Below are positions 2,376 to 11,052 of a stretch of 35,061 bases of DNA, one piece after another. The notes beneath the pieces were generated by a model. That model had not been told where the DNA came from. It was given only the letters and a program-made list of their open reading frames with translations, and made no database searches. Origin of the DNA: Clostridiales bacterium (GTDB lineage Bacteria; Bacillota; Clostridia; Oscillospirales; Oscillospiraceae); contig JAJPXY010000145.1 in the NCBI GenBank assembly GCA_021205205.1, positions 3,498 to 38,558 on the forward strand, in the 5' to 3' direction. The position numbers were made by a program, and so were the translations under genes. Each line of letters starts with the position of its first letter. Positions within the stretch are counted from its first letter, which is position 1.

Positions 2376-3656
2376 TCACAGCGGTTCCCGCTGTTCCTCT
2401 GTGTCTGTGTCCGCCCGGAAGATGTCCGCCCCCAGGGCGGTCAGGTCCTGCTCCAGCCGTGCATAGCCCCGGTCAATGTGGTGCAGCCCGGTGATCTGGC
2501 TCTCGCCCTCCGCCGCCAGGGCCTCCACCACCAGCGCCGCGCCGCCCCGCAGGTCTGCCGCCTCCAATCGGGCGGCGTGGAGCCGGGGTACGCCGCAGAC
2601 CACGGCCACCCGGCCCTCCACCCGGATGTCGGCTCCCATCCGCGCCAACTCCGCCGCCTGGCGGTAGCGGTTCTCGAAGATGGTCTCCACAAAGACGGTG
2701 GCGCCTCTGCCGCCGCAGAAGGCGGCCATGACCATGGGCTGGGCGTCAGTGGGGAAGCCAGGGTAAGGCGCGGTGCGGATGGGCCGGACGCCGTTCAGGG
2801 GCCGGTCGCACCGCAGCTCCACCCGGCCCTCGCCGCCGGAGACGGTACAGCCCGCCTGGCGGAAGGTGTCCAGCACGGGCAGTAGCCACCGCCGGTCCAG
2901 ACCCTCCAGGGCCACATGGCCCCCGGTGGCCGCGGCGGCGGCCAGGTAGGTGGCCCCCACGATGCGGTCCGCGATGACGGTGTGTTCCCCACCGTGAAGG
3001 GGCGCGCCGCCCCGTATGGTCACGGTGGAGGTGCCCGCCCCGTCGATGTCCGCCCCCAGGGCGCGGAGGAAGGTCTGCAAGTCCACGATCTCCGGCTCCC
3101 GGGCGGCGTTGGAGATGGTGGTCACGCCGTCGGCGGCGCAGGCCGCCAGCATGATGTTCTCCGTGGCCCCCACGCTGGGGAGGGAGAGGGACAGCTCCGC
3201 GCCGTGGAGGCTGCCCCGGCAGCGGATGCCGCCCCGGGCGGCGTCGATCTCCGCCCCCATCCTCTGTAAGGCGTTCAAATGCAGGTCGATGGGCCGGGGA
3301 CCCAGCTCGCACCCGCCGGGGAAGGACAGCTCCGCCTGGCCGCACCGGGCCAGAATGGCCCCCAGAAAGATGACCGAGGAGCGCATCTCCCGCATGAGGG
3401 CGTCGGGGATGTCCATGCGGGTCAGGGTGGAGGAGTCCACCGTCACCGTCTCGCCCTCCCGGTGGACCCGGCAGCCCAAATGCCGCAGGATGGCCACCGC
3501 CGCGTCCACATCGGTCAGGGCGGGGCAGTTATGTATCACGCTGACGCCGCCCGCCAAAATCGCCGCCGCCAAAATGGGCAGCACACTGTTTTTTGCCCCG
3601 TGGACGGCCAGCTCACCGGAGAGCGGCCTGCCGCCGCGCACTCGCAACACACGCAT
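2376..3656 (-). CDS. murA: UDP-N-acetylglucosamine 1-carboxyvinyltransferase MurA
   Basis: MurA catalyses the first committed step of peptidoglycan synthesis, transferring enolpyruvate from PEP to UDP-GlcNAc. The N-terminal GGRPLSGELAVHGAKN segment with the catalytic-type Lys-Asn, and the loop PGGCELGPRPIDLHL containing the active-site Cys (fosfomycin target), are both present. At 426 residues it matches the family. The ATG at 3656 was chosen over one six codons upstream because a GGAGG site lies 7 bases before it and the family begins at this point. It sits between murG and ftsQ in the dcw cluster. Many Firmicutes have a second murA elsewhere, which cannot be judged here. Confidence 0.96.
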   Translation of the reverse strand: MRVLRVRGGRPLSGELAVHGAKNSVLPILAAAILAGGVSVIHNCPALTDVDAAVAILRHLGCRVHREGETVTVDSSTLTRMDIPDALMREMRSSVIFLGAILARCGQAELSFPGGCELGPRPIDLHLNALQRMGAEIDAARGGIRCRGSLHGAELSLSLPSVGATENIMLAACAADGVTTISNAAREPEIVDLQTFLRALGADIDGAGTSTVTIRGGAPLHGGEHTVIADRIVGATYLAAAAATGGHVALEGLDRRWLLPVLDTFRQAGCTVSGGEGRVELRCDRPLNGVRPIRTAPYPGFPTDAQPMVMAAFCGGRGATVFVETIFENRYRQAAELARMGADIRVEGRVAVVCGVPRLHAARLEAADLRGGAALVVEALAAEGESQITGLHHIDRGYARLEQDLTALGADIFRADTDTEEQREPL

Positions 3657-3729
3657 AGGGATTCCTCCATTCAACGTTTAAACGGATTTATCCCATCCTA
3701 TGCGCCGGTCGGGCGGTTTGACAGCGGCA

Positions 3730-6436: not shown

Positions 6437-7414
6437 TTACCGTCCCATCACGCCCAGATACGCCAGCACGCAGGCCGCGGCGGTGATACCGGTGAACACG
6501 GCGAACAGCTTGTATTCGCTCCAGCCGCCCATCTCGAAGTGGTGGTGCAGGGGGGCCATGCGGAAAATGCGCTTGCCGTGGGTCAGCTTGAAATACGTCA
6601 CCTGGATGATGTCCGAGGCGGTCTCCGCGATATAGATAATGCCCACCAAAATCAAAATCAGCGGCATATCCAGCGCGAAGGCCAGCCCGCAGACCATGCC
6701 CCCCAGGAACAGGGAGCCGGTGTCCCCCATGAACACCTTGGCGGGGTGGAAGTTATAGACCAGGAACCCCAGCAGTCCGCCCAGCATGGCAGCGCTGAGG
6801 ACGCCCAGCTCGGTATAGTCCCACAGCAGCGCCGTGGCCAGGTAGAACACCATCACCGGGATGGTCACGCCGGTGGCAAGGCCGTCCACGCCGTCGGTGA
6901 TGTTGACGGCGTTCACCGTCCCCACCATGACGAAGGCGGCAAAGACCATGTACACCGCCCAGGGGATCTCCACCGTCACGTTGGCGAAGGGGATATAGAG
7001 GTCGGGGTTCAGATACCCCGTGTTCCGCAGCAGCAGGGTGAACACGATGGCCGCCACCAGCTGGAGCAGGAACTTTTGCGCGGCGGTCAGACCCTCGTTC
7101 TGGTGGTAGCGGACCTTTTTGTAGTCGTCGATGAAGCCGATGACGCCGAACACCAGGGCGAAGCAGAACACGATCAGCGCGCCGAAGTCGCCGCGGGCGA
7201 AGTCGCTCCACCCCAGCGCCACCAGGGCCAGGAAGCTACCCGCGATGAACATCAGGCCCCCCATGGTGGGGGTGCCCTGCTTGGACATATGCCACTTGGG
7301 GCCGATCTCCTTGATGGTCTGGCCCGCCTTCAGGGCGCGGAGCCAGGGAATCAGAAAATGGCCAATGAGGACTGTGGCGGCAAAGGCCACAACGAAACTG
7401 ATAATCGCTCTCAT
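6437..7414 (-). CDS. mraY: Phospho-N-acetylmuramoyl-pentapeptide transferase MraY
   Basis: MraY is an integral membrane enzyme that transfers phospho-MurNAc-pentapeptide from UDP to undecaprenyl phosphate, forming lipid I. The 325-residue protein has about ten membrane helices. The catalytic aspartate motifs are visible in order: IDDYKK, NITDGVDGLA and FMGDTGSLFLGG, followed by the histidine loop APLHHHFEMGG. The N-terminal substrate loop GPKWHMSKQGTPTMGG is intact. An AAGGAG site precedes the ATG. It lies downstream of the degenerate MurE-like gene where murF would usually be expected between them. Confidence 0.97.
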   Translation of the reverse strand: MRAIISFVVAFAATVLIGHFLIPWLRALKAGQTIKEIGPKWHMSKQGTPTMGGLMFIAGSFLALVALGWSDFARGDFGALIVFCFALVFGVIGFIDDYKKVRYHQNEGLTAAQKFLLQLVAAIVFTLLLRNTGYLNPDLYIPFANVTVEIPWAVYMVFAAFVMVGTVNAVNITDGVDGLATGVTIPVMVFYLATALLWDYTELGVLSAAMLGGLLGFLVYNFHPAKVFMGDTGSLFLGGMVCGLAFALDMPLILILVGIIYIAETASDIIQVTYFKLTHGKRIFRMAPLHHHFEMGGWSEYKLFAVFTGITAAACVLAYLGVMGR

Positions 7415-7484: not shown

Positions 7485-8615
7485 TTATCCCCCTGTTTGA
7501 AATTCCTTCAAAATATCCCGCTCGTCGAAGGGCACTTCCTCCCAGCCCACCAACATGGTGGTGCGGTCGCCCCGCCCGGCAAGGATGACCAAATCTCCCG
7601 GCTCCGCCACGCTCACCGCCCGGCGGATGGCTTTGGCCCGATCCGGGACCAGCGTCCCCTTCCGGCCCTGCATTCCGGCGCGGATGTCCCGGCAGATGTC
7701 CTCCACCGGCTCGGTGCGGGGGTCGTCGGCGGTCAGGTAGACCCGGCCCGCCATGCGGGAGATGACCGAGCCGATCTGCGCCCGGCGGCTCCGGTCCCGG
7801 TCGCCCGGCGCGCCGCAGACCAGCAGCAGCCGCCCCTGGGCCATGGCTCGGGCGGTGAGCAGCAGGTTCTCCAACTGCTCCGGGGTGGTTGCGCTGTCGA
7901 TGAGGGCGGCGACGCCGCCCGTCAGCTCGTGCAGCTCCATGCGGCCCGGCACGCCTCCGGCGTGGCCCAGCACCTCCACCATCCGCTCCAGCGGGACCTC
8001 CCACAGCTGCCCCACCGCCAGGGCAGCCAGGCTGTGGTACAGGCCGAAGCCGCCGGGGACGGGCAGCCGCACCCGGGAGATGCCCTGGTCGGTCAGGGCC
8101 TCGAACTCGATGCGGTCCCGCAGCAGCCGCAGGTTGCGGCCGTTCACGTCGGCCTCCCCCCGCTTCTCGGCGTAGGTGCGCTTTTTCCCCGGCCACAGCT
8201 CCGCCAGACGGCGCACGTCGCCGTCGTCAACGCTGCACACCAGCGCGCCGCACCGTCCCTCCAGATTCTGGCACACCAACTCGGCCTCCCGGCTGTTTTG
8301 CAGGCTGGTGACCACCGCCAGCTCCAGGGGCAGGTCTTTGGCCAGCCCCGCCGCCAGCATGGGGACGGTCATGGTGAACACCGCCCGGTCACACCCGGCG
8401 TCGGCCATCCGGTCCAGGAGGTCGGGCAGCTGCCGCTCCCACCCCGGCCACGCCGGGGGCGGCAGCACCTGGTCCCGGACGTAGCTGTGCCGCGTGGTGA
8501 TGAGGCCGGTGGTCTGGCCCGCGCCGTCCTCCAGCATCCGACGCACCAGATGCGCCGTGCAGGTCTTGCCTGCCCCGCCGATCACCGCCGTCAGCGGGAT
8601 TCTTGGACTAATCAT
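7485..8615 (-). CDS. Degenerate MurE-like Mur ligase family protein
   Basis: The 376-residue protein aligns by eye with the central and C-terminal domains of MurE. It has a shortened P-loop GGAGKT at 13-18, VPGRMEL at 222-228 (MurE VPGRFE), DSATTPEQLENLL at 240-252 (usually DYAHTPD), GDRDRSRR at 271-278 and DDPR at 297-300 where DAP-adding MurE has DNPR. The N-terminal UDP-binding domain of about 100 residues is absent. The EVSSH block reads TMTVP, the DHLDFH block reads NSREAEL, and FNVYN reads FGLYH, so the equivalents of three catalytic residues known from Mur ligases (Glu157, His183 and Asn271 in MurD numbering) are missing. No frameshift or stop is seen. It starts inside the end of the PBP gene (8-base overlap), implying translational coupling. 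A true MurE role is doubtful. A structural or regulatory role in the divisome is possible but is inference. Confidence 0.8.
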   Translation of the reverse strand: MISPRIPLTAVIGGAGKTCTAHLVRRMLEDGAGQTTGLITTRHSYVRDQVLPPPAWPGWERQLPDLLDRMADAGCDRAVFTMTVPMLAAGLAKDLPLELAVVTSLQNSREAELVCQNLEGRCGALVCSVDDGDVRRLAELWPGKKRTYAEKRGEADVNGRNLRLLRDRIEFEALTDQGISRVRLPVPGGFGLYHSLAALAVGQLWEVPLERMVEVLGHAGGVPGRMELHELTGGVAALIDSATTPEQLENLLLTARAMAQGRLLLVCGAPGDRDRSRRAQIGSVISRMAGRVYLTADDPRTEPVEDICRDIRAGMQGRKGTLVPDRAKAIRRAVSVAEPGDLVILAGRGDRTTMLVGWEEVPFDERDILKEFQTGG

Positions 8616-10947
8616 CAATTTCCTGTCCTGTGTAGTCGGCCGCGGCGCTGTCGGCGAAGTTCACCGTAATGACGCTGCCCCGCTCCACCTCGGTCCCGGC
8701 GGCGGTGCTCTGGCTGTAGGCCAGCGTGGTGCTGTTGTAGTAGCTGGAGGAGCCGGTGGCCGTCATATAGAGGTCCAGCTCGCTCAGCGCCTCCTTTGCC
8801 TGGTCCACCGTCATGCCGATCAGGTCCGGCACGGTGACGGTGTCGTCGGGGGCCTCCTCCCCCATATAGAGGATGACCTCGCTGCCACTGGGCAGGGCGG
8901 ACCCGGACGCGGGACACTGGTCGGTGACGGTCTCGCCGTCGCCCACCACCCGGTAGGTCAGGTCCTTGGCCTCCAGCGCCTCCGCCGCCTCGCTCTCGCT
9001 GAGGCCCGCCAGGGCGGGCATGGAGACGCTGACGCCGGAGAGGTCGTCGTCGGTGTACTGCTTTTCGTAACCCAGATAGTCCAGGGTGTCGGCGATGAGC
9101 TGGCCCGCCACCGGCGCGGCCATGTTGCCGCCGGAGATGTAGTAGCCGGTGGTGGAGTAGTTGCTGCCCGCCGCGTCCACCTGGGGGGAATCGAAGGCCA
9201 CCAGCACGATGATCTCCGGGTCGTCCGCCGGGGCGAAGCCCACGAAGGAGACGACGTATTCATCGTCGTTCAAGGTCTGGGAGGTGCCGGTCTTGCCGCC
9301 GATGCGGTAGCCGGACATATAGGCGTTGCGCCCGGTGAAGCTGGTGACGACCCCCTCCAAAATGGTGGCGCAGCGCTGGGAGGTCTCCTCGCTGATGACC
9401 TGGCGGACGGGGGTGGTGTCCGCCTCATAGGTGGTGTCGCCGCCGGAGTCCACAATGCTCTGCACCACATGGGGGGTGTAGAGGTAGCCGCCGTTGACCA
9501 CCGCGTTGATGGCGGTGATGAGGCTGATGGGGGTGACGGTGAACCGCTGACCGAAGGAGGCGGTGGCCAGCTCGGTGATGCCGAAGCTGGACAGGTCCCA
9601 GATGACGTTGGAGCTTTCGCCGGGCAGGTCGATGCCGGTGGACTCCATCAGGCCGAACCGCTCCATGTAGGAGTAGAAGGTCTCCGCCCCCAGGCTCTGG
9701 CCGATGGAGATGAAGGCGGGGTTGCAGGAGTTGCCCACCGCCTCCGCCAGGGTCTGGTGGCCGTGGCCGGAGCGGTCGGAGCAGCGAATGGTCCAGTTGG
9801 AGACTGTGACGGAGCCAGTGCAGTTAAAGGTGGTGTTCTCGTCCACGACCCCTTCCTGTAAGGCGGCGGCCAGCACCAGCGACTTGAAGGCGGAACCCGG
9901 CTCATAGGTGTAGTTCAGCGCCTTGTTGCTCCACATCTCGCTGAGGGCGTCCGCCTCGCTGGTGGCCCCGGACTCCACCTCCTCCTGGAGCACCGTGTCG
10001 ATGATGGTGCTGTAGCTGTTCAGGTCGTAGGTGGGGCGGCTGGCCATGCCCAGAATGGCGCCGCTGTCGCAGTCCATGACGATGATAAAGCCGCCGTTCT
10101 GCACGTCATATTTCTCAATGCCGTCCGCCAGAGCCTCCTCGCACAGCTTCTGGATCTCGGTGGACAGGGTCAGGGTGACGGTGCTGCCGCTCTCCGCGTC
10201 GTAATACTCTTGGTAGAAGTTCAGCAGGTCGGTGCCGCTGGCGTTCTGGGCCGTGACCAGCAGCCCGGCGGTGCCGGACAGCTCGTCGTCCAGCTCCGCC
10301 TCGATGCCGTAGGCGCCGCCGTTGTCGTTGGTGAAGCCGATGATCTGGGCGGCCAGGGTGGAATAGGGGTAGTACCGCTTGGAGTTGGGGGTCAGGTAGA
10401 CGCAGCCGGTGAGGCCGTATTCGTCGATGAACGCCCGCACCGCCTCCTCCGTGGTGGCGTCCAGCTTGGTGGCGATTTTCTTATACTGGCTGGCGGTGTC
10501 CTGGCATTTCTCCCGGATGCTGTCGGCCTCCACGCCGTCCAGTATCTCTGCCAGACCAGTGGCAATGGTTTCCACTACGTCCAGGACCTCGCCGGGGTCC
10601 TCGCCCTTCTCCTCCGCTTCCGCGGCGGCGGCGTCCAGCGCCTGCTGCTTGTCGTTGATGGCCTTGGGGGACAAAATCACGTCGTAGGCGCTGGCGCTGA
10701 TGGCCAGCACGTTGCCCTCGGAGTCGTAGATGGTGCCCCGCAGGGCGGAGACGGACAGCTCGCTGGTCTGCTGATCCACCGCCTTCTGCTCTACCTCGTC
10801 GTGGCGGCTGATCTGCCAGTACCAGAGCTTGTAGACGATGGGGATAAACATCATGACGCCGCAGAGGGCCAGCAGGAACACCGTCCTGCGGAAGATACGG
10901 CGGTTGGCCGAGCGGCTGCTGTTCTTTTTTCGCTTTTGGCGGTTCAT
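8608..10947 (-). CDS. ftsI: Class B penicillin-binding protein with PASTA domains (FtsI/SpoVD type)
   Basis: This is a septal transpeptidase that crosslinks peptidoglycan. The 779-residue protein has a basic N-terminus, one membrane anchor at about residues 21-42 and a dimerisation domain beginning RGTIYDSEGNVLA. The transpeptidase motifs are SAFK (352-355, nucleophilic Ser), SCN (407-409) and KTGTS (552-556). Two C-terminal PASTA domains run from about residue 645 to the end (VSMPALAG... and VTVPDLIG...). The ATG at 10947 has a GGGGTGGAG site just before it; a GTG three codons upstream is an alternative. PASTA repeats occur in both SpoVD and PBP2X-type proteins, so vegetative or sporulation use cannot be told apart. 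A MITE-like repeat separates it from ftsL. Confidence 0.94.
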   Translation of the reverse strand: MNRQKRKKNSSRSANRRIFRRTVFLLALCGVMMFIPIVYKLWYWQISRHDEVEQKAVDQQTSELSVSALRGTIYDSEGNVLAISASAYDVILSPKAINDKQQALDAAAAEAEEKGEDPGEVLDVVETIATGLAEILDGVEADSIREKCQDTASQYKKIATKLDATTEEAVRAFIDEYGLTGCVYLTPNSKRYYPYSTLAAQIIGFTNDNGGAYGIEAELDDELSGTAGLLVTAQNASGTDLLNFYQEYYDAESGSTVTLTLSTEIQKLCEEALADGIEKYDVQNGGFIIVMDCDSGAILGMASRPTYDLNSYSTIIDTVLQEEVESGATSEADALSEMWSNKALNYTYEPGSAFKSLVLAAALQEGVVDENTTFNCTGSVTVSNWTIRCSDRSGHGHQTLAEAVGNSCNPAFISIGQSLGAETFYSYMERFGLMESTGIDLPGESSNVIWDLSSFGITELATASFGQRFTVTPISLITAINAVVNGGYLYTPHVVQSIVDSGGDTTYEADTTPVRQVISEETSQRCATILEGVVTSFTGRNAYMSGYRIGGKTGTSQTLNDDEYVVSFVGFAPADDPEIIVLVAFDSPQVDAAGSNYSTTGYYISGGNMAAPVAGQLIADTLDYLGYEKQYTDDDLSGVSVSMPALAGLSESEAAEALEAKDLTYRVVGDGETVTDQCPASGSALPSGSEVILYMGEEAPDDTVTVPDLIGMTVDQAKEALSELDLYMTATGSSSYYNSTTLAYSQSTAAGTEVERGSVITVNFADSAAADYTGQEIDD

Positions 10948-11052
10948 CTGCTCCACCCCCTGGTCGGCGAAGAAGGGCGCAAGAATTGACTCTTCTTACG
11001 CCCTCTGTTGTTTCTTATGGCTATGGCCGTTTTTCCTGAACGTTCTCATCGA

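Follow-up and report, generated by a model that had tools for sequence, protein, structure and literature searches.

The dcw cluster of the window (the whole 35,061-nt stretch of DNA analyzed here) carries a shortened murE, and the identification of its product as a pseudoenzyme, designated pseudo-MurE, is well supported by sequence comparison: the catalytic motifs are lost, the fold is kept in structure predictions, and the gene is under purifying selection. The case extends beyond one genome, as the dcw murE is reduced (five genera) or full length but decayed (two genera) in at least seven genera of one family, with a second MurE encoded elsewhere.

Results

The pseudo-MurE gene (7485..8615, minus strand) runs from an ATG at 8615 to a stop at 7485-7487 and encodes 376 amino acids. 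A sequence-only reading of this DNA had described an intact frame that overlaps the PBP gene by 8 bases and lies between it and mraY, and all of this is confirmed. The start overlaps the end of the gene for a SpoVD-like PBP with PASTA domains (8608..10956, minus strand) at 8608..8615 on the minus strand, and mraY (6437..7414, minus strand) follows after a gap of 70 nt. An ATG with equal spacing to the PBP gene end is found in genomes G204, G226, and G219 and, as one of several possible starts, in G046. The cluster order is mraZ, rsmH, ftsL, PBP, pseudo-MurE, mraY, ftsW, murG, murA, ftsQ, and ftsZ, where ftsQ is named by position, without an NCBIfam match, and ftsL, ftsW, murG, and mraZ are best NCBIfam matches somewhat under cutoff. 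The murA gene (window positions 2376-3674) sits inside the dcw cluster, in the gap between murG and ftsQ, as it does in many of the related loci read.

In pseudo-MurE, Pfam recognizes Mur_ligase_C in full and Mur_ligase_M in part. Its best NCBIfam matches are MurE models, well under their cutoffs (196.7 bits versus 373 for NF001126 and 187.4 versus 257.3 for TIGR01085). The UDP-binding domain 1 of MurE is missing, and the structure model aligns from residue 90 (4bub) or 96 (7b6i) onward. Where MurE has its catalytic Glu, loop His, and carbamylated Lys, three columns that are invariant in the 56 full-length MurE proteins aligned, pseudo-MurE has Thr81 (8373..8375, minus strand), a gap, and Cys, respectively; the His of DYAH and the His of GKGH are also lost. 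The P-loop, GGAGKT (aa 13-18; 8562..8579, minus strand), and the D(N/D)PR motif, here DDPR in the C-terminal domain (aa 297-300; 7716..7727, minus strand), are present. The loss of the substrate domain and of key catalytic residues from a MurE-like protein of the dcw operon, with P-loop and DDPR remaining, had been read from the sequence and stands.

The 56 proteins comprise 27 full-length MurE proteins found with the short protein, with the dcw position checked for some of them, and 29 of type 2; L019 (an 816-aa frame) and L022 (the decayed protein of G026) were dropped before the counts. The window protein retains 47 of the 92 columns that are invariant in at least 95% of this alignment, and most of what it has lost belongs to domain 1 or to the catalytic loops. 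Among the invariant columns of the C domain it retains 29 of 41, with 29 to 30 of 41 across the four proteins counted from clade A, the group of the window's genus in which the P-loop is kept. The AlphaFold model of the window protein (mean pLDDT, 83.7; pTM, 0.77) matches solved MurE domains 2 and 3 along its whole length (VIA-align), a comparison with MurE structures that had been proposed as a check, and the predicted fold is confident for clades A and B alike. A dcw MurE profile scores the window protein at 289.9 bits versus 162.4 for a type-2 profile, and in the MurE tree the protein is placed with the dcw proteins. By these sequence comparisons and by gene position, pseudo-MurE is a descendant of dcw MurE.

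The window genome, estimated as 100% complete, has six Mur_ligase_M matches, namely, pseudo-MurE and five others (MurE, MurF, MurD, MurC, and FolC), each of the latter above a curated NCBIfam cutoff. The full-length MurE (487 aa) is located after dapF, scores 504.5 and 438.9 bits versus the cutoffs of 373 and 257.3, and has 28% identity to the short protein. The second murE, murD, and murF that the sequence-only reading had suggested looking for are thus all present. As a complete murE is accompanied by murC, murD, and murF in this genome, the short gene is an extra copy and probably does not encode a ligase.

At least 29 of 400 family genomes have matches to the full-length MurE of the window genome at an E value of 1e-126 or better. 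Seven of the 29 listed adjoin mraY, and G240 and G319 were left out of the position check. Among the remaining 20, the dcw copy is degenerate, reduced, or absent in 18 and intact in 2 (G394 and G049), both of which have the two MurE types. Each of the four genomes of genus g66 likewise encodes a full-length MurE at another locus, and in the MurE tree these proteins are placed with type 2. Of the 17 pseudo-MurE carriers in the window's genus, 16 have a second MurE of full length; in the other, G215 (clade B), none was found with the short protein as the query. A third MurE-like class, with frames of 800 to 875 aa (L257, L259, L260, and L261, from G145, G066, G230, and G030), has 34% identity to the full-length MurE of the window genome. 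G211, of the same genus as the window and 97% complete, has no MurE match at an E value of 1e-20, probably due to an assembly gap.

The 17 carriers, from 32 genomes of the genus searched, consist of 10 in clade A, 5 with whole copies in clade B, in which the P-loop, VPGR, and DDPR are all lost, and 2 with copies split across contig ends. In the last two (G205 and G209), each short frame is half of a gene interrupted by a contig end, and neither entered the dN/dS sets; the G209 fragment, of clade B, has one in-frame stop near the contig end. All 15 whole copies have open frames. Both neighbors, PBP and mraY, are confirmed for 11 whole copies, and mraY adjoins the gene in the rest. In the other 15 genomes (13 + 2), pseudo-MurE is absent and mraY comes directly after PBP, at a distance of 81 to 260 nt in all 13 measured. 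Retention in the operon, as proposed from the sequence, therefore holds for 17 of the 32 genomes of the genus (15 whole copies and 2 halves) and fails for 15. The dcw gene is also absent in G041 (g42) and G121. Its absence in 15 of 32 genus members indicates that the gene is not required everywhere and, taken with G041 and G121, that it is dispensable in some lineages. Two absences look like recent losses: G222 lacks the gene and its tree neighbor G226 has it, and G121 lacks the gene and G026, of the same genus, has a full-length decayed copy. A two-peptide-pattern scan of 84,980 species genomes recovered 15 relatives, 4 of them 91 to 93% identical to the window protein, and found no copy beyond the genus.

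By the NG86 method, which is crude at this G+C content, pairwise dN/dS is 0.055 to 0.213 among the seven closest copies (21 pairs), 0.055 to 0.354 over all 45 clade A pairs, and 0.18 to 0.32 over the 10 clade B pairs, whose P-loop and DDPR are lost. From the first and last of these ranges, pseudo-MurE is not a pseudogene but a gene whose codons record purifying selection. This was another of the proposed checks, and the neutral decay offered as an alternative does not fit clades A and B, where values are well below 1. The proposal of a pseudoenzyme is thereby strengthened: a second, complete murE passes the cutoffs that the short protein fails, catalytic residues are gone, and selection persists.

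The reduced forms compared have in common a conserved middle-domain core (aa 128-202; 8010..8234, minus strand), made up of a helix, a strand, three antiparallel strands, and an LAAL helix. The core has a smaller pooled dN/dS than the remainder of the gene in clade A (0.054 versus 0.157 in set A7), clade B (0.132 versus 0.302 in set B5), g66 (three of four copies, G230 being left out), and g87. Compared with the remainder, dS of the core is not reduced in clades A and B and g66, which argues that the constraint acts on the protein, and it is reduced in g87. Windows of core length with fewer nonsynonymous changes number 24 of 302 in A7, 21 of 302 in A10, and 34 of 267 in B5, while 138, 22, and 417 of 5000 random codon sets, respectively, are as low as the core; with 417 such sets, core constraint in clade B alone is not significant. 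The least-changing 75-codon stretch in A7 is aa 249-323, a part of the C domain under constraint no weaker than that on the core. The first 25 codons, the P-loop segment (window positions 8541-8615), have a pN of 0.000 and a pS of 0.12 in A7; this low level of change possibly reflects a translation-coupling or a P-loop constraint. Given the constrained C domain and P-loop in clade A and the nonsignificant core in clade B, the core is, as far as substitution patterns tell, what the reduced lineages share and not the sole selected part in the window's group. In that group, constraint on P-loop and C domain matches that on the core, so ligand binding may persist there. The mini gene of g87 is under weak constraint, with pairwise dN/dS of 0.43 to 1.20 and pooled values of 0.50 for the core and 1.09 for the rest. 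One PBP pair, G000-G226, had a dN/dS of 3.34, out of line and suspected to be a misalignment, and was left out.

Smaller forms of MurE occupy the gap between PBP and mraY in g55, g14, g87, and g66. The proteins go down to about 170 residues, and the smallest retain mainly one ~80-aa piece of the middle domain; in the g14, g87, and g66 forms read, the C domain is absent. A family survey for the same short gene, as the sequence-only reading had advised, thus yields reduced forms in these four genera and an absence in G041 and G121. The forms were counted among the matches listed, and their number is a lower bound. In G641 the short frame belongs to a MurE of the full type that is truncated by the end of its contig and is not a reduced form, and frames of 329 to 427 aa in G521, G583, G539, and G448 were left out of the count. 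The dcw MurE profile matched 23 of 23 forms tested (15 of them from the window's genus, with g66 left out) and 0 of 460 shuffled copies.

The core stands out when identities are compared over six regions, expressed as averages over nonindependent pairs, with g66 left out of the comparison and g27 and g91 left out of its reduced columns. Between intact dcw and type-2 MurE proteins, the core has the lowest identity of the six, 29% (others, 38 to 53%). Among the reduced lineages (clades A and B, g55, g14, and g87), it has the highest, 41% (others, 16 to 30%), and between reduced and intact dcw proteins it reaches 44% (others, 17 to 34%). Within the intact dcw enzymes the core is about average, at 66.5% (others, 53 to 75%), and within the type-2 enzymes it is lowest, at 56.9% (others, 59 to 72%). 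Genus g7 is, judged from its protein sequences, the reverse case, with catalytic motifs retained and the core lost. Its MurE proteins (L254, L253, and L252 in G006, G110, and G175) adjoin mraY and have frames of 410 to 436 aa from which the core is missing; the catalytic motifs are kept in all three, with EHL replacing DHL in two, and the one scored, from G175, is above both MurE cutoffs.

As seen from a tree of five neighboring proteins, genera with degenerate or reduced MurE fall in at least four places: g91 with g66; g27; g87, beside g40, which has an intact MurE; and g55 with g1 and g14. A smaller neighbor tree without g66 agrees for the remaining genera, and constraining these genera to one clade is rejected (AU test, p = 1.8e-10, fast constrained search). 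In the MurE tree the decayed proteins cluster, probably through long-branch attraction, and independence was therefore judged from the neighboring-gene tree.

Discussion

The explanation we favor, and consider somewhat probable, is that a former dcw murE whose ligase job was passed on has been retained as a noncatalytic binding module in lipid I/II synthesis. Pseudo-MurE would be the former murE of the cluster, with ligation taken over by the second, distantly related full-length MurE encoded after dapF. With the UDP-binding domain and catalytic loops gone, it would be unable to perform UDP-MurNAc-tripeptide ligation, and its product appears to be kept as a folded protein, by prediction, under purifying selection. 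The ~80-residue middle-domain module may dock on a partner among MraY, MurG, FtsW, and the cytoplasmic part of the PBP, helping to organize or regulate lipid I/II synthesis without catalysis; in the window's group, binding of a ligand by the P-loop and C domain may come on top of this. A role as scaffold or regulator with MraY, FtsW, and the PBP, as first suggested from the sequence, is a plausible hypothesis.

CwlM is an inactive amidase relative, and its family is unrelated to MurE. Its role is possibly of the same kind as that of pseudo-MurE, since in mycobacteria it is described, in the excerpted text of PMC6180346, as a proposed regulator of peptidoglycan precursor synthesis and transport. 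Contacts of Mur ligases with other cell wall proteins are described in excerpts of PMC6420597, with MurE-MurF binding MurG in Bordetella and MurD, MurE, and MurF occurring with MreB and MurG in Thermotoga. PAP11 (9epc_Q) is first among the structural matches of the window model, tied with Thermotoga maritima MurE (VIA-align). This MurE-like subunit of the plant plastid RNA polymerase is a MurE homologue inside another machine, and most plant copies retain many of the catalytic residues (PMC12681378, in excerpt); pseudo-MurE differs in belonging to a cell wall operon and in having lost those residues. From MurE itself (NF001126 and TIGR01085; PDB 4bub and 1e8c), it differs in lacking domain 1, the catalytic Glu and Lys, and the loop His, in falling under both cutoffs, and in having a complete MurE elsewhere in the genome. 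Among the matches listed from the open-access literature, as represented by titles and abstract openings, none describes a degenerate MurE encoded in a bacterial dcw cluster.

Some of the same evidence could be read differently. A ligand-sensing pseudoenzyme, whose P-loop and C domain in the window's group still hold ATP/ADP or diaminopimelate and which, when occupied, controls the type-2 MurE or the synthesis of lipid I, would account for GGAGKT in 10 of 10 clade A copies, the 29 to 30 C-domain columns kept, and the strong constraint on the first 25 codons and on aa 249-323. We regard it as unlikely, however, as clade B keeps the gene without P-loop and DDPR, the g14, g87, and g66 forms read are kept without a C domain, both the DYAH and GKGH His residues are lost, and the pS of the first 25 codons hints at constraint at the nucleotide level. 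Far less probable is a new ligase that, like MurT, uses a membrane-bound substrate, here lipid I or II. MurT, which together with GatD forms a lipid II amidotransferase, is a Mur ligase relative with central and C-terminal domains and a P-loop and without the loop His (PMC6085368, in excerpt), and loss of the UDP-binding domain would suit a membrane-linked substrate. Yet pseudo-MurE lacks the catalytic Glu and Lys, and clade B is under selection with its P-loop lost. Moreover, the middle domain of MurT bears a cysteine-rich zinc-ribbon insertion (same source), whereas pseudo-MurE has seven Cys and no CxxC pair; by profile it is closest to MurE, with the MurT model absent among the NCBIfam matches listed, and no GatD is found among the ten named genes of the cluster. 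Action on another substrate, also raised in the sequence-only reading, is weakened by the missing Glu and Lys and by a sister group still selected without its P-loop; it is less improbable for the window's own group, in which P-loop segment and C domain are under strong constraint.

That a redundant dcw murE is simply decaying on its way out, being already gone in many relatives, receives some encouragement from its absence in 15 of the genus members, the graded decay across genera, the stop in the G209 fragment, and near-neutral values outside the core in g87. We hold this to be very improbable: dN/dS is well under 1 in clades A and B and g66, every whole genus copy is open, the fold is confidently predicted even in clade B, and the same core is retained in lineages that do not form one clade. 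Least probable of all is that what selection maintains here is the DNA or RNA itself, as a translational-coupling spacer or an internal mraY promoter. Possible starts do lie from 37 nt before to ~75 nt after the PBP gene end in the 17 reduced forms measured, but synonymous change in the core equals or exceeds that elsewhere in clades A and B and g66 (it is lower in g87), and all 13 relatives measured join PBP straight to mraY. For clades A and B, dN/dS and regional dS thus make both the decay and the nucleotide-level readings unlikely.

In some gut bacteria, then, a cell wall enzyme has lost its catalytic parts and a second gene apparently covers their job, while a portion of the old protein is still encoded between two cell division genes. 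This points to an additional, noncatalytic role of the enzyme. It is possible, if somewhat short of probable, that the dcw MurE of this family has two separable jobs, ligation and a noncatalytic role of the ~80-residue module where lipid I/II is made, that evolution has repeatedly split, several lineages keeping the module without the enzyme and one keeping the enzyme without the module. Pseudoenzymes are already known; a MurE pared down to a single module on repeated occasions would be new. It has long been asked whether cytoplasmic Mur enzymes join MraY, MurG, and the divisome in a physical complex, and interaction data on this point are scattered; lineages with module but no enzyme, or enzyme but no module, would offer a natural dissection that singles out one small domain.
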